A stretch of 64,000 nt of DNA. Source: Sodiomyces alkalinus F11. Its lineage: Eukaryota > Ascomycota > Sordariomycetes > Glomerellales > Plectosphaerellaceae. Shown piece after piece: positions 31,109 to 62,507 of this stretch. The notes below the pieces were generated by a model that was given only the letters and a program-made list of their open reading frames with translations, searched no databases and was not told the DNA's origin. Position numbers and translations under genes: made by a program. The stretch spans positions 1,085,246 to 1,149,245 of the forward strand of contig NW_021167087.1 of assembly GCF_003711515.1 (NCBI RefSeq). Direction: 5' to 3'. Each line of letters opens with the position of its first letter. Position 1 is the first letter of the stretch.

Positions 31109-31588
31109 TATTACGACCTGGGTTCCTGGACACTAAGTCTAGGATCCCTAGTTAGGGTTGTCCTGAGTTTGTGTTCACGAGGTAAGTGGAGGTTGTAAGC
31201 TGAGCGTAAGTCTCTCGTAACTTCTCGTAAGCGGTCGTAAGGTAAGTCTACCTCTTCACTATAATACTTAAGGAGGTTTCCAATAAAGACTTAGATTAAA
31301 CACTATCTTATTCTCTGGTAGAAGCAAGACCTAGGACACTCTAGTATATATATCTAGCTATTTATATTCCCCTAGGTAAACTCTCCTCCTCTATTCACGA
31401 TAGCCCGAGTAAACTTAAGGCCGAGTTCACTTCCCTCCAGGTGAATATCCTGCTTAGTTCACGGCTGCCTTGGTGAGTAACCCTTATCCTATCACATGAC
31501 CTGTATATATAGTATATATATGCCTTCTAATAACATTATTCCCCTTATATAGTTAGCCTTCTTAATAACCTATTCTTTGGCCATAGTA
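31109..31588 (-). repeat. Gypsy A1 3' LTR (left)
   Basis: 480 bp. Shares its R-U5 half with A2 LTRs, whereas the U3 half is different. Confidence 0.9.
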
Positions 31589-31697: not shown

Positions 31698-32346
31698 ATA
31701 ACGCGAGTAGAGAAAACTCCTTTAGCGAAGTCGCGTTCGACTGAAAATTATTCCCTGGTCTTAGCGCTTATCTCCGAGTAAGGTTACGAGGTCGTCCCTT
31801 ATACTCGTTACTTCGATAACTTCTTTAGTTATTTTATCCTTAACGATATCGGTCGTTATTCCACTTATTACCTCGCCGGTTATTCTTACGATTCTTCCCG
31901 GGTCCCTATATCGTCGAGTAAGACGTCCCGCGACCCTTATCTTCCCTTTACTTATAGCCCTAGTCGGCCGTATCCACGAGGAGCTTCGCCGTCTTAAGCG
32001 ATAAAAGAAGTAGGCAGAAAAGGCCCTACTTACTCGCCGTCGTTAACTCGAAAAAGAGGTAGATAAGGCCCTTGCTCGGCTCCTGCGTCTAAGAAAGATA
32101 CGCCGTAGTCTACGTAAACGGGGTGTCGAAATAGTGCGGATGGATTTAGTAAACCTCGAGGAACTAGAGGAATCCGAACGTCGTGAAAAAGCTCGCCTCG
32201 AGGAGCTCCGGCGGGTAGAGTCCGAAGTTATAGTGGCGACTTAATCTGCTAACGTTACCGTCGAGATTAATTAGGATACGGTGTTAGGTAACGTGGCTCC
32301 TTCCGGTACTAGTGCAGAAGTTATTAGCAGTTCGTTAAGTTCTTAA
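31698..32346 (+). pseudogene. Antisense coiled-coil gene of Gypsy A1, RIP-broken
   Basis: Opposite strand to the element's pol. Two exons, 31698-31917 and 31964-32346, around a 46-bp GTAAGA..CCTAG intron (phase 1), totalling 603 nt or 200 codons before the stop. The presumed start ATG is now ATA (a TpG-to-TpA change). Conserved blocks are ALISE-x-GYEVVPYTRY, SYDSSRVPISS (exon 1), GRIHEELRRLKR, ALARLLRLRKIRR and RKRGVEIVRMDL (exon 2), then IN-stop-D where the stop stands for a Trp. Internal stops are all TAA/TAG, as RIP makes from CAA, CAG or TGG. The basic, Leu/Arg-rich C-terminal half should form a helix or coiled coil. Function unknown. Its 3' end meets or slightly overlaps the pol end, tail to tail. 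Confidence 0.8.
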
Positions 32347-41400: not shown

Positions 41401-43640
41401 CTATTACTACGGGAGAGGCTATTACTATTACTATAGACTATATCACCGCTATTACTACGGACACTGCTATTACTACGGGAGAGGCCACCGCTATTACTAT
41501 GGGCTAGGAAGACGCCACCGCTATTATTATAGGAGAGGCCACCGCTATTACTACGGATACTTCACGGTTTACCACTATAAGGTTTAAACCGTTTCCCACG
41601 CCTTTAATATCCCCTAAAGATCCTGCGCGCGCGTTCCTTATAGCGTTAGCGGTGGTCAGGGGCGCTAAGGTGGAAGAACACGATAACCACTAACAGATAG
41701 CTATAGGTGCCCCTAAGGGGTGCCCGTCGGCTATACTCCTGTCGGCCGCGCGCCTATTACCCGCGCGCCTAGCTATCGCGAGAACTATCGTAAGTCTATA
41801 CACGACTAAGAAGGTCTAGAACGATAACGCCTAAAAGGCGTTCTTTAACGCTAGCAGGACTTATAACCCGATACGCATAAGGAAGTAAGCCATTAACGAT
41901 AATAACGTCGGTGCTATAGATTCCCCTTACACCTACTAGCCGCTATCACTATCGTATATAACCCGCGAGGATCTCCCGCCTCTACTAAACCACCACTGCG
42001 ATATACGACTCTATCCGTTATAGGAGCGGTAGTTATAGGCTAAGGGGGAACACCTTAAAGGGCACCGATAAATAGGCTACTAGTAGGAGGTAGGTAGTAA
42101 TTAGGCTAATAAGTAATAAGTCCTCGCCGATAGATAGGTATACACCTATAAATTTAATAGGGAGGGCACCCTCCTTAAATATAAGGCACGTCTTATAGTT
42201 TGAGGGGATTAATAAAAACGGTTAGAGACTAAAGATAACTACGCCGTAACGCTAGCCTCGCGGTCCTTCTATATACTAATAGCGATCGCCGCCCGGTTTA
42301 ACCTGGAGATAAGGCAGTTCGACGCTATTAACGCGTTTGTTAACGCTAGCCTTAAGGAAAAGGTATTTATAAAGATACCGTAAGGCTATAAAGTACTAGG
42401 CAAGGTCCTACTACTACGGAAAGCCCTCTTCGGCTTAAGGGTATCGCCACTACTATAGTAAGAGGAATTTAGCGGTACGCTATAGAGGATAGGATTCACG
42501 GCCGTGCCTAATAACCCCTATATTATACTCCGCGACGGTTTAATCCTATTCTTCTACGTTAACGATATCGGACTTATCTACTATAGAGATTATAAGACGG
42601 ACGCCGATAACCTCAAGGCCGCCCTTAAATAAAGCTATAGGTTATTAGGAGGCGAAAAAATCCATTAGTTCCTGGGAATTAAGGTCCTATGGGATAAAGC
42701 CACCCGAAAGTTATAGCTATTATAATCCTCCTACGTAAAGAAGATCGCGGCTCAATACTACGTAGATATACTCTACCGAAAACCACTAAAGGCCCCGTTA
42801 TTAACGATAAAGCCGCTAATACCCCGCGACAGCACACACGCGTTAATTCCCGAGGTCTATTAGTATCAGAGTATAATCGGTTCTATCCTATACGCCGCTA
42901 TCGTGATAAGACCCGATATCGCGTTCGCCTATTTAAAGCTTTCCTAATTTAACGTTAACCACTTCTCTAACTATCTTAAAAAGGCTTAATAAATGCTATT
43001 ATTCCTATACTATATAAAACACTACTACCTAGAATTCGGCGGGGATAGGCTCTTCCTAATAGTAAGCGACGCGTTCTTTAAGGATAATCTAGACCGTAAG
43101 AGTTCGTAAGGATATACGATAAAGCTCTTCGGTGGCACCGTTAACTAAAAAGCGGGTAAATAACCGACGGTCACGACGTTATTAACAGAATCGGAACTAC
43201 TTACTCTTATAGAAGTCGCTAAAGAGACGTTATTCGTTAGTCGGATATTAAGGGATTTAGAGCTTCGGTTAAACTAATAATAACTATAGCTATACTACGA
43301 TAATTAGCAGACTATTAACCTTGTTAATAAGAAGGCATAACGCCTGCGCATAAGGCTACGGCACGTCGATATTCGTAATCAGTAGGCACGTTAGTCAGTA
43401 TAGCAGGGCCTCTTTAAGGTCACGTACGTTAACACGAAGGAGATAATCGCGGACCGTTTAACGAAGGCACTACCGGAGGCAGGAATTAAAAGACTATAGT
43501 AATAGCTTAATTTAACGGATTAAAAGGACCGTATCGAGTAGTCTAAACGACTATATAAAGAGATTAAACGCGCTAAAGCGGCCGTAACGAAGGCCCCTGA
43601 GGGCGTAGCAGATCCGATAGATATAAATCTAATTAATCAG
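38435..43640 (+). pseudogene. gag-pol of Copia C1, RIP-broken
   Basis: Begins with an Ala/Thr-rich segment (about 38435-38690, still open). The aspartic protease motif DSGS is at 39767-39778. The pre-integrase zinc site W-x-K-R-L-G-x at 40221-40241 has both His turned to Tyr. RT YVND, from YVDD, is at 42555-42566, and RNase H traces (SDAFFKDN) are near 43075. An Ala/Thr/Ile repeat array sits between integrase and RT (41255-41575). Stops are TAA/TAG throughout. Confidence 0.85.
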
Positions 43641-43839
43641 ATCTGGCTAATCAGAATCAAGGAACCAATTAAGATAGAATGAAATTAAACGGTTAAATAG
43701 GGCGGATTTAGATCCCTTTTACGAGGGCGTTTTCCCTTAACTATTAATTTTACGATAGAAAAGTTAAGAGCGTTTAGTTTAAACCGAAGCCTCTAATTAG
43801 TTAGTTAACCTAGGAAGACCCACCTTAACTAAGAGGGTA

Positions 43840-44123
43840 TATCGTATAGGCAGGACCACGATATAGTCTATAAGGGATCCAGGGGGGATCCACTCTATAA
43901 CTAAGGGCTCCGGATATCGGGGACTTCGGGTATCAGGATATAATAAGGGTGGATACCGGAAAAGACCGGATAGGATCCAAATGATATAGTACCCATAATA
44001 GAGTCTTCACCACCTAAATTAAGGGTATAAGAGACTCTCCTAGATATAACTTAATATAATATACACACACGAGATTTCTACTCTACTAAGTTAATCATTC
44101 AAGTGCCTATTTAACGTGCGATA
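43840..44123 (+). repeat. Copia C1 3' LTR
   Basis: 284 bp, preceded by a short purine tract (AAGAGGG) and followed by the target duplication GAATA. Confidence 0.92.
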
Positions 44124-44128
44124 GAATA

Positions 44129-44519
44129 ACCTCGCCGGATCCGGAATAAAGAAAAGGATAGCGGCGAGGGACCGTGGCGATAGCGTACTAAGGGCGCGTG
44201 CGACCGATACGACACCTACTAAACTAACTAGCCGACCCCCGTTAGCTATTAGCCCGGAGGTAAGATCCGGTTTTCGAATAGCGATAAAAACGGGGCCGTG
44301 GAGTAATACCGTAGCGGCCATATATAGTAGACCTACCTATATAATAAGAGCGTAGGGGTTTTTATCTATTAACGGTTTCCCCTCGAGAATTAGAGAAGGA
44401 CTATTACCCAGGTGGCTAGCCTAGCTTAGCTAAGCGAGAGCAGAGTAATAAATAATAATAATAATAGTAACGCCCTAGTCAGGATAAATAAATGCCCTAG
44501 TCGGAATAAGTAGTCCCTA
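44129..44519. other. Gap between Copia copies, partly non-repetitive
   Basis: 44130-44330 is GC-richer and lacks the dense TpA pattern; a minus frame of 76 codons crosses from here into the C1 LTR, with no recognisable domain. 44440-44519 has ATA repeats and words shared (inverted) with 23445-23480. Confidence 0.45.
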
Positions 44520-44676
44520 TATATATTAAATTAAGTTATATCTATATAAGTCTCTTATACTCTTAAATTAGGTAGTAAAGACTCTGTTATAGGTACTATA
44601 TTATTTAGATCCTATCCGGTCTTTTCCGGTATCCGTCTTTATTATATCCTAATGCCCGAGGTCCGAAGCCCTTACT
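44520..44676 (-). mobile_element. Truncated Copia family C LTR
   Basis: Matches the middle and right part of the reverse-orientation LTR, then stops at GAAGCCCTTAC where the C2 LTR begins. C2 seems to have inserted into this older LTR. Confidence 0.7.
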
Positions 44677-44951
44677 TATCGCACGTTAAATAGCACTTGG
44701 ATACTTAACTTAGTAGAGCAGAAATCTCGTGTATATGTATTATATTAAGTTATATCTGTGTAAGTCTCTTATGCCCTTTAATTTAGATAGTAAAGACTCT
44801 GTTATGGGTATTATGTTATTTAGATCCTATCCGGTCTTTTCCGGTATCCGCCCCTGTTATATCCTGATACCCGAGGCTCGAAGCCCTTAGTCCGGGAGTG
44901 GATCCCCCCTAGATCCCCTATAGACCACGTCGTGGTCCTGTCTATACGATA
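44677..44951 (-). repeat. Copia C2 3' LTR
   Basis: 275 bp, starts TATCGCACG and ends TACGATA. It aligns with C1 LTRs in reverse. Confidence 0.88.
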
Positions 44952-46037
44952 TACCCCCTTAGTTAAGGTGGGTCTTCCCAGGTTAACTAACTAGTTAGAG
45001 GCTTCGGTTTAAACTAAACACTCTTAGCTTTTCCATCGTAAAATTAATAGTTAAGGACAAAAAACGCCCTCGTAAAAGGAATCTAAATCCGACCTATTTA
45101 ACTATTTAATTTAATTCTATCTTCATTAGTTCCTTGATCCTGATTAGCTGGATCTGCTTAATCAGATCTATATTTATTAGATCTGCTACGCCCTTAGGGC
45201 CCTTCGTCGTCGCTACGACCGCGGCTCTAGCGCGTTTAATCTCTTCGTGTAGTTACTTCGACTACTCGATACGATGCTTTTAATCCGTTAAATTAAGCTA
45301 TTACTATAGTCTTTTAATCCCCGCCTCCGGTAATGCCTTCGTTAAACCGTCCGCGATTATCTCCTTTATATTAACGTATATAACCTTAAAGAGACCTTAT
45401 TATACTAACTGGCGCGCCTACTAGTTATATATATCGATATGCCGTAGCCTTATCCGTAGACGTTATACCTTTTGATTAACGAGGTTAATAGTCTATTAAT
45501 TATCGTAGTGTAGCTATAGTTACTATTAGTCTAACCGAAGCTCTAAATCCCTTAATATCCGGCTAACGAATAACGTCTCTTTAGCGGCCTCTATAAGAAT
45601 AAGTAGTTCCGATTCTATTAACGACGTCGTCACTATTAGTTACTTACCCGCCTTCTAGTTAACGGTGCCGCCGAAGAGCTTTATCGTATATCATTATAAG
45701 CTCTTATAGTCTGGATTATCCTTAAAGGACGCGTCGCTTACTATTAGGAAGAGCCTATCCCCGCCGAATTCTAGGTAGTAGTATCTTATATAGTATAAGA
45801 ATAGTAGCACTTATTAAGCCCTTTTAAGGTGGTTAGAGGAGGGGTTAATATTATATTAGGAAAGCTTTAAATAGGCAAACACGATATTAGGTCTTATTAT
45901 AATAGCGGTATATAGAATAGAACCGATTATACCCTAGTACTAGCGGACCTCGGGAATTAACGCGCGTATGCCGTCGCGGGGTATTAGCGGCTCTATCATT
46001 AATAATAGGACCTTTAGTGGTTTTTGGCAGAGTATAT
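44677..46037 (-). mobile_element. Copia retrotransposon C2, 3' part (split by Gypsy A2)
   Basis: Reverse-strand copy of family C. The 275-bp 3' LTR 44677-44951 is followed by sequence that is the reverse complement of the 3' end of C1 (RNase H end and tail). The copy breaks at 46037 and resumes at 62596 beyond Gypsy A2; TATAT at 46033-46037 and 62596-62600 is the duplicated target. Confidence 0.92.
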
Positions 46038-46518
46038 TATTACGGCCAATAGGCCTAATATACACTAGCACGAGGGATATACTAGTATACAGCGTACTAG
46101 GACGTAACTAGAGGATGACTCAGTATAATATCACGTGTTAAGTTACGTGATAGATAACCAAGGAAGGTATACTAGTACGGATAGATTACTAGGATTACTA
46201 GTAATTACTTAGCGAAGGAAGTGATCTAGTATAATCCCAGGCTAGGGGATTACTAGGGCGTTCGTGATCTCGCGGGTATATATACTAGAGCATCCTAGGT
46301 CTTACTTCTACTAGAGAAGAAGGCAGTATTTAATCTAAGTCTTTATTAGAAACCTCCTTAAGTATCATAGTGAAGAGGTAGACTTACCTTACGACCGCTA
46401 ACGACAGAACGAGAGAACTACGCTTAGCTTATAACCTCCTCTTACCTCGTAAATATAAACTCACGATAACCCTAACTAGGGATCCTAGACTTAGTATCCA
46501 GGAACCCAGGTCGTAATA
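46038..46518 (+). repeat. Gypsy A2 5' LTR
   Basis: 481 bp, starts TATTACGG and ends GTAATA (RIPed TG..CA). TATATATACTAGAG near 46270 is a TATA-like box. Confidence 0.92.
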
Positions 46519-49500: not shown

Positions 49501-51988
49501 CTATTTATACTAAAAAAGAATAGTAAACCACGACTTTATATAGATTACTGATAGCTTAACGATATTACTATTAAACATCGCTACCCTTTACTACTTATTA
49601 GCGAATTACGAGATCGCTTATAAGGAGTGTAATAGTTTATAGTACTCGACCTAAAAGGAGCTTATAACCTTATTAGAATTAAGGAGGGAGAAGAATAGAA
49701 AATAGCGTTCCGAATATAAGAAGGATACTTCGAGTATCTTATTATACCCTTTAGATTAACTAACACGCTAGTAACCTTCTAATCTATAATTAATAATATA
49801 CTACGAGAGTACCTAAACGACTTCGTGGTTATATACCTCGATAATATCCTTATCTTCTCGAAGACCCTCGAATAATATAAAGAATATATTTATAAGATTC
49901 TAGGTAAGCTCTAGGAAGCGAAGCTACTAGTTAAGCCTAAGAAGAGTTAGTTCTATAAGAAAGAAGTTAACTTCCTCGGATTTACTATTAAGCTAGGAGA
50001 GATCTATATAAAAGAATCGAAAGTCTAAGCCGTTATAGAATAGCCTATGCCTATAAGCATTCGCGATATTTAAGCGTTTTTAGGCTTCGCTAACTTCTAC
50101 CGATAATTTATAAAGGATTACGGAAAGATCGTAACGCCCTTAATAAGAATAACTAAGAAAGATCTGAAATTCGAATAGACTAATAAGGCCGAAGCAGCCT
50201 TATAGGAAATTAGAAAAAGAATCCTTAGCAGACTAATACTACGAATACTAAACTCTATAAAGCTATACGAAATAAAGACTAACGCCTCCGACTACGCTTT
50301 AGGAGGATAGCTAGGATAAAGAGATAAGGAAGGACGCCTATATCCGGTAGCCTTCTTCTCGAAAAAACTCCACGGACTAAAACTTAACTACTAGATCTAT
50401 AATAAAGAGTTAATAGCGATTATCGAAGTATTTAAGAAATATAGACCGTACCTATCCGGGATAGAGTACCCTATTAAGGTCTACACTAATTATAAGAACC
50501 TAACTTATTTTACTATAAGTAAAGTACTAAATAAACAATAAATTAGATAGGCAGAATTCTTATTAGAATTTAACTTCGAGATCTAGTATCGAAAAGATTA
50601 GAAAACAGAAGAGTAGATATACTAAGTTGCTAATAGCTACTAGAATAAGTAAACGAAGAGTACTACGCTATACTCTAATAGCAGGATAAGAAATTAATTA
50701 ATAAGTTCCGGGAACTTATACCGATCGAAAGAATTAACTAAGATATTATTCAATAAGCGTATAATCTACTAGCGTATAATTATTAGGGAGTAACTAAGAC
50801 GTATTAACGACTTCGATAATACTACGGATATTAAGAAACTAAATACTAAGTATAAGACTATATTAAAAAGTGCGAAGTATATAATAAAGCGAAAGGATTA
50901 AGGTATAAGCCTTATAGACTACTATAACCACTACTAATTCTAGAAGCGGTATAGGAGTTAGTATCTATAGACCTTATTACGGGATTACCTAAGTTAAAAG
51001 ATCTAACTATAGCAAAAGAGTATAATAGTATATAGGTAATTATAGACCGATTAACTAAGTATACGTACTTCTTACTATTTAATACTATAACTATTACCGA
51101 ATAACTTATATACACTTTCCTAAGATATATTATAGGAAACTATAAAATACCGAAATAACTAGTCACGGATTAAGATAAACTATTTACTAATAAATTTTTA
51201 AAATCTTTAGTCGCGTAACTAGGGATAGACTACCGACTATTAATAGCATTTTCCTATAGACTAACGGATAAACGGAAAGAATAAACTAAACCCTCGAATA
51301 GTATCTTAGATACTACGTTAACTATAAGCAGGATAACTAGGTTAAACTACTACCGCTAGTATAATTTATATATAATAGTATACTAAGCGAATCTAGTAAG
51401 ATTATACTATTTTACGCGAACTACGGATTCACACCTATAGCTTATAGAGAACTAAGAGAAGCGTAAGAAGCGCCTAGAGTAACTAAGAGAGTCGAAGAAA
51501 TCAAGGAAATCCACGACTAGCTACGATAAGACCTAGAGATAGTTAGAACTAGAATAAAAGAATATGCCGATAAAGTAAGGTTAAAAGGACTAACCTTTAA
51601 AAAGGGGGATAGCGTCTACCTTATACGATAAAACATTAAGACTAAACGACTAAGCGATAATTTAGACTTTAAGAAGATCGGACCTTTTAAAATTTTAAAG
51701 AAAATCTCGGATACTATCTACTACCTTTTATTACCCGAGACCATAAAAATATACCCAGTCTTTCACGTGTCATTATTAGAACCAGCACCACAGGGATTAT
51801 AAACGAAAGACCTTATCGAAATCGAAAATAACGAAGAATACGAAGTCGAACGAATCCTCGATTACCGAGAGACGCTAGACGGCATAGAATATTTTATTAG
51901 ATGGAAAAACTATAGACACGAAGAAAACACATAGGAACCTAAAGAAAACCTGATCCATTATAAGCAACTCCTAAAGCAATACCGATAA
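46600..51988 (+). pseudogene. gag-pol of Gypsy A2, RIP-broken
   Basis: Ends approximate. Gag (FKFPEPEPFDS, then a GLKEEVKDNL retrotransposon-gag segment) is followed by a knuckle N-x-N-K-K-G-H-F-A near 47465, protease DSG at 48702-48710, RT YLDN at 49834-49845, an integrase with KKCEVY (HHCC remnant) near 50865, and a chromodomain (YEVERILDYRETLDG and YFIRWKNY) at about 51838-51960. The chromodomain marks it as a chromovirus; such domains bind methylated histone tails and steer integration. All stops are TAA/TAG. Confidence 0.87.
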
Positions 51989-51995
51989 AACACTA

Positions 51996-52595
51996 TTAGG
52001 ACCCAGAACCAGACGCCGCGGCCTGCGTAAGATTAATATCCGAAAAATCACCTATATCCTACGTCAGAATTAGATTCTAGTCAATCACGTTAATAGCACC
52101 GGCCGCTTACGTATCGACTACCGCTTCAGACTTCTTATAATCCGCCGCCTCTAAAGCGTCAAGGGACTTAAGGCCACGGGCCACTATAATCACACCCTTA
52201 GAACGAAAGGACTCCCTCTAGCGACGGATTCGGGCCAAGCGGGCCAGAGACTCAAAAGCCTCCTTCTAGGCCTTCTCTAACGCGCGATAAGCAGATAGGA
52301 GGGAGGCCTTGGTCACCTCCTCCTCCGTCTTAAGGCGCTCTATTTCCTTGTTAATACGCGTTACTAAAAGGGTGATTAGCGAGGAGAGTAACTCGGAAGA
52401 ATAGGAAAGGCACCCACGAGAAGATAGAGGAACCCCCGAGCTATCGTACGATTAACCACGACGGACGTATTCCTAATAACGAGAAATGTTTTCGATTATA
52501 AGACACCGAAAACCTTTTAACTCGTAAAAGAAATAAGGCATAACTTCCACTCTAGAGAGTTCGATAGTGCGCGACAGCTTAAGTCGATACTGCAT
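51996..52595 (-). pseudogene. Antisense coiled-coil gene of Gypsy A2, RIP-broken
   Basis: Minus strand, two exons 52595-52418 and 52363-51996 around a 54-bp GTGGGT..TTTTAG intron (phase 1, GCTAAT branch-like site), 546 nt or 181 codons plus stop. ATG at 52595 starts MQYRLKLSRT. Seven internal stops, all TAA/TAG. Shared blocks with the A1 and B copies: SYDSSGVPLSS at the exon end, TRINKEIERLK after the intron, SLARLARIRR, RSKGVIIVARGL, and I-D-stop-N where the stop stands for Trp. Its stop codon lies 8 bp from the first stop after the pol chromodomain, so the two genes are tail to tail. Because 54 is a multiple of three, this copy reads through even unspliced. Function unknown. Confidence 0.83.
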
Positions 52596-52740
52596 CTTAC
52601 AGGAAGGCTGCGATTTCTGGATACGGCCGGATATAGTAATTAGCTATAGGAAAAGAAAAAAGAACCTTAGGGGTGATAAACCTAGGACAGGCGACCTATT
52701 TATACGACCGCTAGGATAGCGCTTAGAAAAGGGGAGGTAA

Positions 52741-53138
52741 TATTACGGCCAACAAGCCTAACATACACCAGCACAAGGGATACACTAGTATATAGCGTAC
52801 CAGGACGTAACCAGAGGATAACTCAGGATAATATCACCTGTTAAGTCACGTGATGGATAACTAAGGAAGGTAGACTGGTACGGATGGATCACTAGGATCA
52901 CCAGTGATCACTTAGCTAAGGAAGTGATCCAGTATAATCCTAGGCCAGTGGATCACCAGGGCGTTCGTGATCTCGCGGGTATATATACTAGAGTATCCTA
53001 GGTCTTGCTTCTACTAGAGAAGAAGGCAGTATTTAATCTAAGTCTTTATTAGAAACCTCCTTAAGTATCACAGTGAAGAGGCAGACTTACCTTACGACCG
53101 CCAACGACAGAACAAGAGAACTACGCTCAGCTTACAAC
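52741..53138 (+). repeat. Gypsy A2 3' LTR, first part
   Basis: 398 bp, cut by Gypsy B at the duplicated ACAAC (53134-53138). Little RIPed: it keeps CpA where the 5' LTR has TpA. U3 has GTGATC/GATCAC words at 52887-52972 and CACGTG at about 52847. Confidence 0.92.
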
Positions 53139-53674
53139 TGTTACGGCCGGCCGCCTAACATGGACCAACCCCATGGGTACACTGGTGTATATTCCACGGG
53201 ACGGCCCTAGACGGGGAACAGCACAGGGTGACTCGGGGAGTCACGTGCTAAGTCACGTGTCACCAGGTACAGAGGTACTTAGTATACCGTCCGGAACGGA
53301 CCAGGGTCGGTCACTCCGATAAAGTGACTAATAAGTGATCGGTCACGACAGAATTACCTGGGCATAGCGACCACGCAAGGAACAGTCACTACTAGTAAGG
53401 AGGCACTATCACTATATAAACCAGAGTATCCTAGGTCTTACTTTTATTAAAGAATAAGACATCGATTAATCTAAGTCTTTACCTAGACTATTAGTCTACG
53501 CCTGACTTTACCTTATAAAGAAGACGCCTAGTCTTTATAACGTAATTACGACTAAACACTACGAACGATAGTTACTACTCTTTAGTTAATATCCTCTTCT
53601 TATTTTAAACTAAAACCTCGATACTAGTCCCCTATCGTCTGCTATACTATAGAGGACTAGAAGCCGTCGTAATA
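53139..53674 (+). repeat. Gypsy B 5' LTR
   Basis: 536 bp. The first about 200 bp are hardly RIPed, unlike the same part of the 3' LTR. Eight GTGAC/GTCAC words occur at 53228-53390, with two CACGTG. Confidence 0.92.
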
Positions 53675-56700: not shown

Positions 56701-59190
56701 CCTATTTATACTAAAGAAAAACGGTAAACTACGACTATATATCGATTATCGATAACTTAACGATATAACTATTAAGAACCGCTACCCACTACCTCTTATC
56801 TCAGAAATACAAGATTAGCTAGTTAGAGCGTAATAGTTTACGGCACTCGACTTAAAAGGAGCCTATAACTTAATTAGGATTAAGGAAGGAGAAGAGTAGA
56901 AGATAGCGTTTTGGACGAAGCGAGGATATTTCGAGTACCTTATTATGCCTTTTAGACTAATAAATACGCCGGTATTATTCTGAACACTTATTAACGACGT
57001 CCTAAGGAAGTATCTGGACTATTTTATTATAGTATACCTAGATAATATCCTAATCTTCTCTAAGACACTTAAAGAACACCGATAACACGTTCACACGATC
57101 CTATAACTTCTATAAGACGCCGACCTATTAGTCGAACCAGAGAAAGTCTAATTCCACACGTAAGAAGTTAACTTTTTAGGTTATACGATACGACTTAACG
57201 AGATCTGTATAGATAAGGCGAAAATCTAATACGTCTCTAAGTAGCTATAACCCTAAAATATTCGTGATATTTAGTCCTTTCTCGGACTTATAAACTACTA
57301 TCGACGATTTATTAAGGACTATAGTAAGATTATTATCCCCTTAACTAAAGTAACTAAAAAGGGACTTAACTTCGAATAGAACGAAAGAATAGAAGAAGCA
57401 TTCTAAGCTCTTAAAGGAAGGGTTACTAACGAACCTATCTTAGTAATGCCAGACCCCGATAAAGAATACGAACTCGAAATAAACGTATCTAACTAGGCTC
57501 TAGGAGTATAACTCGGATAGCGCGACGTAGAAGGAAGACTATACCCTATAGCCTTTATATCTAAGAAACTCAGTGGACTAGAACTTAACTATTAAATCCA
57601 CGATAAAGAGCTAATAGCTATTATTAAAGCCTTTAAAGAATAGAGACCGTATCTATTAGGGATAAGACACCCGGTATAAGTCTACACGGATTATAAGAAC
57701 CTCGCGTAATTCACTATTACTAAGGTTCTTAATAAACGATAAATCCGATAGGCAGAATTCCTAGCCGAGTTTAACTTCTATATTCAGTATATAAAAAGGA
57801 GCGAAAATAGTCGTGTAGACGCACTTAGCCGACTAGGGATACCTGACGAATCACCTAAACCGTAAGCTATACTCTAATAGGAAGGAGAAGCTCTTACTCT
57901 AAAGGATAAAGAGGTAAATAGTATTAATCGGATAACCGATACTATACTTAAAGAAGTATACGCCTCGCCGATATATAGATATTAAGGAGTTTATAAAATA
58001 TACCACCGATTACGATAATAATACGGCTACACAGGAACTAAAGAATAAGTCAGGGACTTTATTCGTAACTATAATATTTACCAGAAAGCAAAGAGTAGCC
58101 AATATAAACCTTACGGACTACTAAAGCCATTACTAGTAGCAGACGGACTATAGAAATCGATTATAATAGACTTCGTGACAGGGTTTCTAGTATCTAAAGA
58201 TCCAGTAATAGGAACCGCCTATAATAGTATATTCGTGATCGTCGACCGATTCACGAAATACACTCTTTATATTCTATATATTAAAAACACTATAGCAGAA
58301 GAACTAGTAAGTATCTTTATCGACCGCCTAATCAGGGATCACGGCGCACCGAACGAGATTATCACGGACAGAGATAAGCTCTTTACTAGTAACTTCTAGA
58401 AAGCAGTTATAAGCCAGCTAGGAACAAAATATAAGTATTCGATAGCGTTTCACCCTATAACGGACGGATAAACCGAAATCATAAACTAAGTCCTAGAATA
58501 ATACCTACGATACTACGTAGGGTACGAATAAGATAATTAGGTGTAATACCTGCCACTTATATAGTTTATATATAATAGCTCGTTAAACGAGTTAATAAAG
58601 AAAATACCGTTCGAAGCAAATTACGGATACACCCCGATAGTATTTAGAAAACCTTTAGAAGGACTAGACGCACTAAGAGCGATAAAAACAGTTAAAAGCA
58701 TAAAAAAACTACATAAAGAACTACGAACCGACCTATAGATAGTTAGAACACGAATAAGCAGATACGCGAATTAATCGAGGATTAAGGGACTAACCCTTTT
58801 AAGGGGGGACCGCGTCTACCTTATCCGTAAAAACTTCAGAATATAACGACTAAGCGATAAATTGGATTTTAAAAAATTAGGACCGTTTAAAATCCTAGAG
58901 AAAAAATCAGATACGAACTATATTCTATTACTACCTCCGATAATAAGGATATATAATAATTTCTATATCTCACTACTTAAACTAGCACCGAAAAACGTAA
59001 AAATAATATAAGACACGATCGTGGTCGATACTAGCGACGTGTATAAAGCAGAACGAATCCTTGACCACTAAGAGACGCTAGATAGCACCGAATATTATAT
59101 AAAATAGAAAAACTACGATCACGGCGATAATATATAGGAACTAAAAGGTAACCTGATTAATTATAAGTAACTCCTAAAGTAGTACTAATA
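53720..59190 (+). pseudogene. gag-pol of Gypsy B, RIP-broken
   Basis: Ends approximate. A gag knuckle (Y-Y-N-Y-N-R-P-G-Y-Y-A-R-D-Y, all Cys and His now Tyr) is at about 54760-54802. A protease remnant LLDIGVAGNF lies near 55895. RT YLDN is at 57035-57046 with FSKTLKEH following. The integrase core is still open at 58175-58399 (FVIVDRFTKY and ITDRDKLFTSNF, giving two of the three DDE acids). A chromodomain remnant (ERILDH, EYYIK-stop-KNY) sits at about 59040-59160. Confidence 0.87.
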
Positions 59191-60283
59191 GAATACTATT
59201 AGGACCCAGGACTAGACGCCGCGGTCTATATAAAATTAATATCCGAAAGTTTACCTATATCCTGCGCTATTACCTAATTCTAATTAATTATATTAATAGC
59301 ACCGGTAGCTTATATAGTAGCCACCGCCTCTGACTCGACCCGACGGGCCTCTTCCTCCTCCTTCTCCACCTTCTTAAGCTCCTCTATATCGGTAAGGTCC
59401 TTACGAACTATTTCTACCCCCTTCTTCCGTAGTAAGCGACGAGTTCGGCGAAGGCGGGATAAGCGGGCGAGCGCCTCGTGGAGTATCTCCTCGGTCCGCT
59501 CCTCCTCTTATTCGAGGCGCTTTAGCTCCTCGTTTATACGACCCGCTAGGAAGATAAGGGGGTAAGTAAACGGAGACTAAGCGGGAAGGCGAGGGCAGGA
59601 GCGTACTAAAGGATATTAGGATTCTAGCACTATTATAAGAACGACCTAAGCGGAAACACGCGTAATAGCGAGCGATATCGTCTAGGATAAAGCACGGTAC
59701 GTTCTTAGAGGCATAACGGGTATAAGGGACGACCTCGTAGCCTTAATCAGCGATAAGGGCGGAAACGGTCGATCGGTTTTTAGCGGAACGAGATTTAGGA
59801 CGAGACGACTTCTAGACACGGTCGGGTATAATAGTTAGTAATAAAGAAGAAGAAAAACCTAAGGAACACTAACTAGGGAAAAGCGACCTACTTATACGAC
59901 CGCTAGGATAGCGCTTAGAAGGAGGGAGGTAATATTACGGCCGGCCGCCTAATATAGACTAACCCTATAGGTATACTGGTATATATCCCACGGGACGGCC
60001 CTAGACGGGGAATAGTATAGGGTAACTCGGGGAGTCACGTGCTAAGTCACGTGTTACTAGGTACAGAGGTACTTAGTATACCGTCCGGAACGGACCAGGG
60101 TTAGTCACTCCGACGAAGTGACTAGTAAGTAATCGGTCACGACAGAATCACCTAGGCATAGCGACCACGTAAGGAATAGTCATTACTAGTAAGGAGGCAC
60201 TATCACTATATAAACCAGAGTATCCTAGGTCTTACTTCTATTAGAGAATAAGATATCGATTAATCTAAGTCTTTACCTAGACT
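58255..60283. repeat. First copy of the 2.03-kb duplicated assembly segment
   Basis: Matches 60294-62322 with a constant offset of 2039 and no difference in any part I compared. It holds the integrase end, chromodomain, antisense gene and the first 351 bp of the 3' LTR. Confidence 0.92.
59199..59829 (-). pseudogene. Antisense coiled-coil gene of Gypsy B, RIP-broken
   Basis: Minus strand, two exons 59829-59607 and 59545-59199 around a 61-bp GTACGC..CCTAG intron (phase 1; CTTAC branch-like site), 570 nt or 189 codons plus stop. The presumed ATG is ATA. Blocks shared with A1: KSRS, ALIAD-x-GYEVVPYTRY, SYNSARILISF, GRINEELKRLE, ALARLSRLRRTRR, RKKGVEIVRKDL. Its stop is the same TCC-TAA as in A2. 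An identical copy at 61238-61868 belongs to the duplicated assembly segment. Confidence 0.82.
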
Positions 60284-60293
60284 NNNNNNNNNN
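60284..60293. other. Scaffold gap of 10 N
   Basis: Ten N between ...TTTACCTAGACT and GAAATACACTC. The base after the gap restarts 2039 bp upstream in the same element. Confidence 1.
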
Positions 60294-62322
60294 GAAATAC
60301 ACTCTTTATATTCTATATATTAAAAACACTATAGCAGAAGAACTAGTAAGTATCTTTATCGACCGCCTAATCAGGGATCACGGCGCACCGAACGAGATTA
60401 TCACGGACAGAGATAAGCTCTTTACTAGTAACTTCTAGAAAGCAGTTATAAGCCAGCTAGGAACAAAATATAAGTATTCGATAGCGTTTCACCCTATAAC
60501 GGACGGATAAACCGAAATCATAAACTAAGTCCTAGAATAATACCTACGATACTACGTAGGGTACGAATAAGATAATTAGGTGTAATACCTGCCACTTATA
60601 TAGTTTATATATAATAGCTCGTTAAACGAGTTAATAAAGAAAATACCGTTCGAAGCAAATTACGGATACACCCCGATAGTATTTAGAAAACCTTTAGAAG
60701 GACTAGACGCACTAAGAGCGATAAAAACAGTTAAAAGCATAAAAAAACTACATAAAGAACTACGAACCGACCTATAGATAGTTAGAACACGAATAAGCAG
60801 ATACGCGAATTAATCGAGGATTAAGGGACTAACCCTTTTAAGGGGGGACCGCGTCTACCTTATCCGTAAAAACTTCAGAATATAACGACTAAGCGATAAA
60901 TTGGATTTTAAAAAATTAGGACCGTTTAAAATCCTAGAGAAAAAATCAGATACGAACTATATTCTATTACTACCTCCGATAATAAGGATATATAATAATT
61001 TCTATATCTCACTACTTAAACTAGCACCGAAAAACGTAAAAATAATATAAGACACGATCGTGGTCGATACTAGCGACGTGTATAAAGCAGAACGAATCCT
61101 TGACCACTAAGAGACGCTAGATAGCACCGAATATTATATAAAATAGAAAAACTACGATCACGGCGATAATATATAGGAACTAAAAGGTAACCTGATTAAT
61201 TATAAGTAACTCCTAAAGTAGTACTAATAGAATACTATTAGGACCCAGGACTAGACGCCGCGGTCTATATAAAATTAATATCCGAAAGTTTACCTATATC
61301 CTGCGCTATTACCTAATTCTAATTAATTATATTAATAGCACCGGTAGCTTATATAGTAGCCACCGCCTCTGACTCGACCCGACGGGCCTCTTCCTCCTCC
61401 TTCTCCACCTTCTTAAGCTCCTCTATATCGGTAAGGTCCTTACGAACTATTTCTACCCCCTTCTTCCGTAGTAAGCGACGAGTTCGGCGAAGGCGGGATA
61501 AGCGGGCGAGCGCCTCGTGGAGTATCTCCTCGGTCCGCTCCTCCTCTTATTCGAGGCGCTTTAGCTCCTCGTTTATACGACCCGCTAGGAAGATAAGGGG
61601 GTAAGTAAACGGAGACTAAGCGGGAAGGCGAGGGCAGGAGCGTACTAAAGGATATTAGGATTCTAGCACTATTATAAGAACGACCTAAGCGGAAACACGC
61701 GTAATAGCGAGCGATATCGTCTAGGATAAAGCACGGTACGTTCTTAGAGGCATAACGGGTATAAGGGACGACCTCGTAGCCTTAATCAGCGATAAGGGCG
61801 GAAACGGTCGATCGGTTTTTAGCGGAACGAGATTTAGGACGAGACGACTTCTAGACACGGTCGGGTATAATAGTTAGTAATAAAGAAGAAGAAAAACCTA
61901 AGGAACACTAACTAGGGAAAAGCGACCTACTTATACGACCGCTAGGATAGCGCTTAGAAGGAGGGAGGTAATATTACGGCCGGCCGCCTAATATAGACTA
62001 ACCCTATAGGTATACTGGTATATATCCCACGGGACGGCCCTAGACGGGGAATAGTATAGGGTAACTCGGGGAGTCACGTGCTAAGTCACGTGTTACTAGG
62101 TACAGAGGTACTTAGTATACCGTCCGGAACGGACCAGGGTTAGTCACTCCGACGAAGTGACTAGTAAGTAATCGGTCACGACAGAATCACCTAGGCATAG
62201 CGACCACGTAAGGAATAGTCATTACTAGTAAGGAGGCACTATCACTATATAAACCAGAGTATCCTAGGTCTTACTTCTATTAGAGAATAAGATATCGATT
62301 AATCTAAGTCTTTACCTAGACT
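60294..62322. repeat. Second copy of the 2.03-kb duplicated assembly segment
   Basis: Begins exactly after the N run and ends exactly where the first copy is cut by it. The copy contains a second set of the chromodomain, antisense gene (61238-61868) and 3' LTR start. Confidence 0.92.
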
Positions 62323-62507
62323 ATTAGTCTACGCCTGACTCTACCTTATAAAGAAGACGCCTAGTCTTTACGACGCAACTACGACTAGACACTACGAACG
62401 ATAGTTACTGCTCTTTAGTTAACATCCTCTTCTTATTTTAAACTAAAACCTCGACGCCAGTCCCCTATCGTCCGCTATACTATAGAGGATCGGAAGCCGT
62501 CGTAACA
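61972..62507 (+). repeat. Gypsy B 3' LTR
   Basis: 536 bp, same length as the 5' LTR; starts TATTACGG and ends TCGTAACA. A partial duplicate is at 59933-60283. Confidence 0.92.

Follow-up and report, generated by a model that had tools for sequence, protein, structure and literature searches.

An intron-containing antisense gene with a zinc-cluster-like motif is exchanged together with the U3 region among chromoviruses of Sodiomyces alkalinus

In a 64-kb stretch (hereafter the window) of the 43.4-Mb, 22-contig genome of the fungus Sodiomyces alkalinus F11, three Gypsy elements, A1, A2 and B, carry between the chromodomain and the 3' long terminal repeat (LTR) a reading frame on the strand opposite to gag-pol, which raises the question whether this frame is a gene and what its product might do. 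The GC content of the window is 50-63% in the first 20 kb and then 32-45%, in a block of Gypsy elements damaged by repeat-induced point mutation (RIP). In a preliminary description of the window the frames were given, each with one phase-1 GT..AG intron; we confirmed the frames, on the plus strand in A1 and on the minus strand in A2 and B, found the intron places to be exact, and recovered the junctions SYDSSRVPISS/I-GRIHEEL, SYDSSGVPLSS/L-TRINKEI and SYNSARILISF/T-GRINEEL. A fourth copy of the gene is located in a tandem duplicate of the B end, at 61.2-61.9 kb. The genes and their parts are as follows:

51996..52634, minus strand: A2 antisense gene; start homologue ATA at 52634, terminal TAA at 51998-51996, only RIP-type stops inside
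52418..52634, minus strand: A2 exon 1; the six-position Cys/Tyr (C/Y) motif of the putative zinc cluster starts at 52535
52364..52417, minus strand: A2 intron, 54 nt, phase 1
51996..52363, minus strand: A2 exon 2, long helix and tail (the helix and a low-confidence tail are modelled for the relatives P0012 and P0001)
31698..32346, plus strand: A1 antisense gene; exon 1 31698-31917, intron 31918-31963 (46 nt), exon 2 31964-32346, C/Y motif at 31800
59199..59829, minus strand: B antisense gene; exon 1 59829-59607, intron 59606-59546 (61 nt), exon 2 59545-59199, C/Y motif at 59724
61238..61868, minus strand: second copy of the B antisense gene; coordinates of B plus 2039, C/Y motif at 61763
51839..51988, plus strand: end of A2 pol with the chromodomain (PF00385 match); pol stop at 51986-51988

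The elements carrying the antisense gene are chromoviruses, with a reverse transcriptase and a C-terminal chromodomain in pol: pieces of A2 pol match PF00078 (reverse transcriptase, 47.1 bits) and PF00385 (chromodomain, 52.7 bits, E 4e-14), while the piece meant for the integrase gave no Pfam match at E <= 0.01. The pol and antisense stop codons of A2 are seven bases apart, i.e. the two genes are convergent. At the other end, the start-codon homologues (31698 in A1, 52634 in A2, 59829 in B) are separated from the 3' LTR edge by 110, 104 and 106 nt; all three read ATA, while L023, a copy with little damage, and intact relatives still have ATG. ATG is itself a target of RIP, because its complement holds CpA. 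The spliced genes of A1 and B measure 603 and 570 nt, as reported before; for A2 the reported 546 nt has to be extended to 585 nt, as alignment with the relative P0001 and with L023 places the start 13 codons further upstream.

To what extent the frame behaves as a gene can be judged from its copies. Matches to 87 residues of exon 2 were found at 95 places of the genome (E <= 0.01), and 85 loci were fetched, with some places taken twice. Most were selected for their resemblance to the gene or the sequence flanking it, and the counts therefore give no share of all elements. In 83 of these loci the motif is convergent with the chromodomain at the expected distance, the exceptions being L029 and L073. 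All but one (L053) of 63 distinct genomic copies have a GT..YAG intron of 46-70 nt at the same place, with a length that is a multiple of three in 13 copies and not in 49, and with a branch-like CTNAY in 56. The intron finder required GT, YAG and the start pattern of exon 2; without it, GT was found at a single offset in 59 of the 63 copies and at the shifted offset of one type in four more, the next most frequent other GT offset being shared by 26 copies. The first 150 codons of the 62 spliced copies contain 340 RIP-type stops (220 TAG and 120 TAA) versus 2 TGA, so the earlier statement that the frame is broken only by TAA and TAG is almost literally true, as would be expected from CpA-targeted RIP of CAA, CAG and TGG codons. 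In a six-frame translation of the window the motif of six spaced C/Y positions is confined to the four antisense genes, and 30 simulated 44-kb sequences contained none.

RIP makes transitions only, and therefore selection was assessed from transversions alone. Among ten copies, transversions peak at the third codon position in 42 of the 45 pairs; against selection count one pair with more transversions at the first position than at the third, and two ties. Ten pairs chosen from the 45, mutually non-independent, gave a transversion-only omega of 0.14-0.69, with binomial p <= 0.027 in all ten and, by chi-square over codon positions, p > 0.05 in two. The antisense protein is under purifying selection, as proposed in the preliminary description, and we regard it as practically certain that the frame is a real coding gene. 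Two copies are little damaged: L069 (G000:C1:3976198) is the sole one of the 95 exon 2 matches without a stop inside the match, and L023 (G000:C2:6235923) has one stop over its whole spliced frame.

Analysis of the protein reveals a basic N-terminus, a Cys6 cluster, a helix of about 95 residues and an acidic tail, usually with Asp-Trp. The label "coiled-coil gene" given to it earlier suits the long helix, which is only a part of the protein and is preceded by the cluster. The six N-terminal cysteines are spaced CX2CX6CX8CX2CX6C, and are often Tyr in RIP-damaged copies (mostly Tyr in the window); in a scan that itself demanded C or Y at the six places, the strict spacing was found in 73 of the 85 loci and the spacing with X6-7 in the last gap in 83. 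All 15 related proteins examined have five of the cysteines, and 14 of them also the sixth; the first gap is X6 in 13 of the 15 (X7 in P0003, X8 in P0014), the second X8-10 and the last X6-7. Zn2Cys6 clusters obey the rule CX2CX6CX5-12CX2CX6-8C, and the antisense proteins agree with it. The Pfam family matched by most of the relatives is Zn_clus (PF00172; 8 of 15 at E <= 10, best E 0.00059), although the profile scores of P0012, P0010 and P0013 (17.9, 12.5 and 12.4 bits) are below the curated cut-off of 21 bits, and L069, P0001 and P0002 yielded no Zn_clus match in the profile search. The AlphaFold model of P0012 has a pLDDT (per-residue confidence) of 88-93 for residues 31-60 and 79 for residues 61-70, and a helix at 69-163. 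Foldseek gave six PDB matches for this model and seven for it and a second model taken together, all to the DNA-binding domains of Pho7 and Leu3, which are of the Zn2Cys6 type; structure realignment adds Hap1, Ppr1, Gal4 and 1cld. The cluster part is thus modelled with local confidence and its nearest solved structures are of the Zn2Cys6 type, but the scores are weak. The tail has a net charge of -2 to -6 in all 11 proteins looked at.

In the Gal4-type layout a cluster is followed by a helix and an acidic tail, with a middle region in the large factors, and the structure matches point weakly to the antisense protein being a miniature version of it. The likeness includes the six-Cys spacing, the short helix that the model places after each CXXC, the coiled-coil-like helix next to the cluster and the acidic tail; unlike those factors, the antisense protein scores below the profile threshold (in P0012, P0010 and P0013), has only about 200 residues and no middle region, and is encoded on the antisense strand of a retrotransposon. 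On balance, the cluster is probably of the Zn2Cys6 kind. The cluster motif and the acidic tail are absent from the preliminary description, as are the exchange of the gene with U3 and the brtn precedent discussed below.

Similar hypothetical proteins of other fungi, which had been suspected there, do exist: a four-row profile search retrieved 33 proteins at E <= 0.01 (two of them profile members) among 7997 scored candidates, e.g. from Corynascus similis (Sordariales), Thermothelomyces thermophilus, and Bionectria ochroleuca / Clonostachys rosea (Hypocreales). P0001 has a 17-residue insert at the junction, which we read as a translated intron, while P0009, P0012, P0014 and P0015 read the spliced junction without an intron, and derive either from cDNA-based contigs or from intron loss. 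The source names of P0006, P0007, P0016 and P0018 (SbcCD ATPase subunit, maltooligosyltrehalose synthase, aminopeptidase and resolvase) look spurious here.

Comparison of the elements reveals that the gene does not follow the rest of its element. A1 and A2, earlier assigned to different families, have pol regions that are about 91% identical (80-96% per 150-nt bin, transversions 0-3%), and differ in the antisense gene and in the U3 (unique 3') region of the LTR, most of which cannot be aligned (transversions 0.24-0.33), while R-U5 is again 85-88% identical. The stretches concerned are:

51936..53015, no strand: A2 exchanged cassette, comprising the antisense gene, the polypurine tract and U3; edges known to within a 60-nt bin
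51,894-52,043, no strand: stretch similar between A2 and B, pol end and last 48 nt of the gene
52,602-52,751, no strand: stretch similar between A2 and B, gene start, leader and polypurine tract

The A2 cassette matches elements with another pol type, whereas A2 pol and R-U5 match A1. A2 is close to L002, in which the A2 gene type is found on another pol, only from ~51,936 to ~53,015; the 5' break precedes the pol stop by some 50 bp, and the 3' break comes to within about 35 nt of the expected position of the U3/R border, marked by a TATA-like stretch (52980-52987). Judging from the break and the TATA-like stretch, the U3/R boundary of the A2 3' LTR would lie near 52,960-53,020. In a second mosaic, L021, the change of partner falls in the first 75 nt or so past the pol end. 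The two stretches shared by A2 and B are 76-78% identical with 4-5% transversions, as compared to 54-75% and 7-25% in pol, and over its final ~207 nt the B query matches A2-type genes at 84%. Thus the low DNA identity noted in the preliminary description does not extend throughout, and the recent shared segment of high identity, considered there as an alternative to selection, is found in part between A2 and B; the gene types overall are deeply diverged.

The same picture is obtained from 62 typed loci, which fall into 3 types by pol, 9 by the antisense gene and 15 by U3. Pol type 1 occurs with 4 gene types and pol type 2 with 7 (pol type 3 is a single locus), and gene types 4, 5 and 8 are each found on two pol types, but no U3 type is common to two gene types. 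Adjusted mutual information is 0.87 between gene and U3, 0.25 between gene and pol, and 0.27 between pol and U3; Mantel rho for 17 representatives is 0.44 (p 0.004) for gene-U3, 0.18 (p 0.15) for pol-U3 and 0.02 (p 0.41) for gene-pol. Among 1891 pairs, 794 combine near-identical pol with different genes and 37 combine different pol with near-identical genes, 25 of these via one locus. In five further LTRs one part of about 263 nt matches several types at 93-98%, while over the whole length the best match, among the five targets listed for each, is to one type (94%, 90%, 87%, 81% and 82%). The antisense gene and U3 hence form a cassette that has been exchanged between pol backbones, with breaks near the pol end and the expected U3/R border. 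In retroviruses such mosaics are made by a template switch with intermolecular first strand transfer, and a single event of this kind may account for those described here.

Does the gene travel with U3 because its product acts there? The U3 types are hard to align, but they have in common pairs of CACGTG exactly 12 nt apart. In a set with one copy per U3 type, the copy richest in CACGTG being chosen, we counted 24 CACGTG versus 0.3 expected, and the pair is present in 11 of the 15 types (one type having CACGTA as a half-site). The whole genome contains 88 occurrences of TCACGTGN6CACGTGA and none of its reversed control; of 50 sites listed among the 88, 14 are beside an antisense gene, 26 at 5' LTR distance (the zones for these two classes make up 0.8% of those contigs) and 10 elsewhere, and all five of the latter that were examined match known LTRs, solo or 5'. 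Two sites were read from the sequence of the window:

53242..53259, no strand: paired CACGTG-N6-CACGTG site in the U3 of the B 5' LTR
52835..52852, no strand: degenerate paired site CACCTG-N6-CACGTG in the U3 of the A2 3' LTR

The site may be read either by the antisense protein or by a host basic helix-loop-helix (bHLH) factor. Several points weigh against a regulator acting on its own U3. Paired CACGTG is the kind of site known for host bHLH factors; the spacer does not track the gene type and the site is common to most U3 types; CGG/CCG triplets are not enriched in U3; the basic residues involved in classical Zn2Cys6 recognition are sparse in the window's own gene types; and adjacency alone predicts that gene and U3 travel together, which is no proof that the protein acts on U3. 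The alternative that co-travel reflects nothing but adjacency, cassette diversity being neutral or driven by escape from silencing and CACGTG being read by a host bHLH factor with the antisense protein uninvolved, is also in line with template switching, in which the 3' end of the RNA is transferred as a single block. It leaves unexplained, however, why the gene is retained under selection and why deeply diverged selected genes persist on near-identical pol backbones, and we consider it somewhat unlikely.

A second alternative retains the gene but makes its product an accessory factor of another kind, e.g. one that controls copy number through Gag assembly or suppresses host silencing, with the zinc fold serving protein or RNA contacts. 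The weak Zn_clus and fold scores and the scarcity of basic residues in the first loop of several types agree with it, but the order of cluster, helix and acidic tail is that of Gal4-type factors and all seven Foldseek hits obtained with the two models are DNA-binding domains, so that this explanation appears unlikely. Still less credible is that the antisense RNA itself is the regulator, through double-stranded RNA and RNA interference or interference with sense transcription, the protein being secondary: a review considers such regulation a possibility for other LTR elements (PMC7264820), but the purifying selection at the protein level, the conserved intron and the Cys6 pattern speak against it. 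That the frame is open by chance, opposite other coding sequence, could be argued only from the broken state of the window copies. This is already refuted by the sense strand, on which every one of the three frames has at least four stops across 650 nt of the gene in all five copies checked, by the codon-position bias of transversions, by the relatives in other fungi and by the intron kept in 62 of 63 copies.

We therefore favor, with modest confidence, the reading that the gene encodes a miniature zinc-cluster transcription regulator of the element, and it is about equally probable that the protein is nuclear and binds DNA. Transcription of the gene would most likely start from a promoter in the 3' LTR that is directed against the element, since the gene begins 104-110 nt from the LTR edge, and the transcript would be spliced to mRNA. 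The intron should survive transposition, as it is antisense to the genomic RNA. The protein would dimerise through its long helix and return as a dimer to the nucleus, where the zinc cluster would bind DNA, most likely in the element's own U3, and set LTR transcription; that this U3 is the main target is a tentative proposal, and we lean only slightly towards activation rather than repression. Gene and U3, which abut each other, would then travel as one cassette and replace their counterpart on other pol backbones via template switching in reverse transcription. One might speculate that the regulator and the U3 it reads are exchanged so that the types keep element lineages from regulating each other, as with phage immunity regions and HBZ, but we find this improbable. 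In lambdoid phages a regulator gene and the adjacent promoter are likewise swapped as a unit between near-identical elements; the likeness is one of arrangement only, and that the paired site is common to most types speaks against private operators.

Accessory genes in antisense orientation have long been recognised in LTR elements with no function assigned to them, and genes of this kind have precedents in HBZ of human T-cell leukemia virus type 1 (HTLV-1) and in brtn of Boty. HBZ, an antisense-encoded basic leucine zipper (bZIP) protein, is the nearest in arrangement, being likewise a dimer-forming regulator of DNA-binding type expressed from the 3' LTR of a retroelement; here there is a Cys6 cluster with another helix instead of bZIP, and no homology is claimed. 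The brtn gene of Boty-like elements of Botrytis cinerea was reportedly described by Zhao et al. 2011, Virology. In the cited passages brtn is the antisense gene of Boty-like elements (PMC7264820, PMC8365987, PMC4227169, PMC5987419); like ours it lies between pol and the 3' LTR, in a fungal element that encodes a chromodomain within gag-pol, and those passages mention for it no zinc cluster, intron or U3 exchange. The consulted part of the review (PMC7264820) also places an antisense HTLV promoter in the 3' LTR, and describes plant aORF-3R genes (Grande gene23, RIRE2, Retand ORF4, PvRetro13) with the same position and orientation, a nuclear location in the case of gene23, no clear protein similarities except an SMC domain (PvRetro13) and a transposase 28 domain (Retand), and roles undetermined to date. 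The hosts are different, but in most of our fetched loci, too, a coding frame lies between pol and the 3' LTR, antisense to gag-pol. Our literature search, with most subscription journals outside its scope, found neither a zinc cluster nor cassette exchange for such a gene. If the proposed reading is true, a fungal retrotransposon encodes its own transcription factor in antisense, in an arrangement as in a human retrovirus, and trades the factor and the promoter together; the domain layout, selected natural variants, open relatives and paired U3 site make DNA-binding and reporter tests directly feasible.

The LTRs referred to above have the following positions in the window:

46035..46435, plus strand: A2 5' LTR, 90.3% identical to 52738-53138
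52738..53138, plus strand: A2 3' LTR, edge 104 nt from the antisense start
31109..31588, minus strand: A1 3' LTR, edge 110 nt from the antisense start
59935..60283, plus strand: B 3' LTR, edge 106 nt from the antisense start

A tandem duplication at 58255-62332, with a unit of about 2039 bp, covers the end of element B including the antisense gene and the LTR. The pieces compared, 58255-58554 and 59500-60283 (the latter identical to 61539-62322), are each 100% identical to their own copy inside a RIP-damaged block, and therefore the duplication either postdates RIP or is an assembly artefact. Between A1 and A2, at 42766-46037, inverted and direct repeats are crowded, including one 820-nt inverted pair that is 86% complementary.
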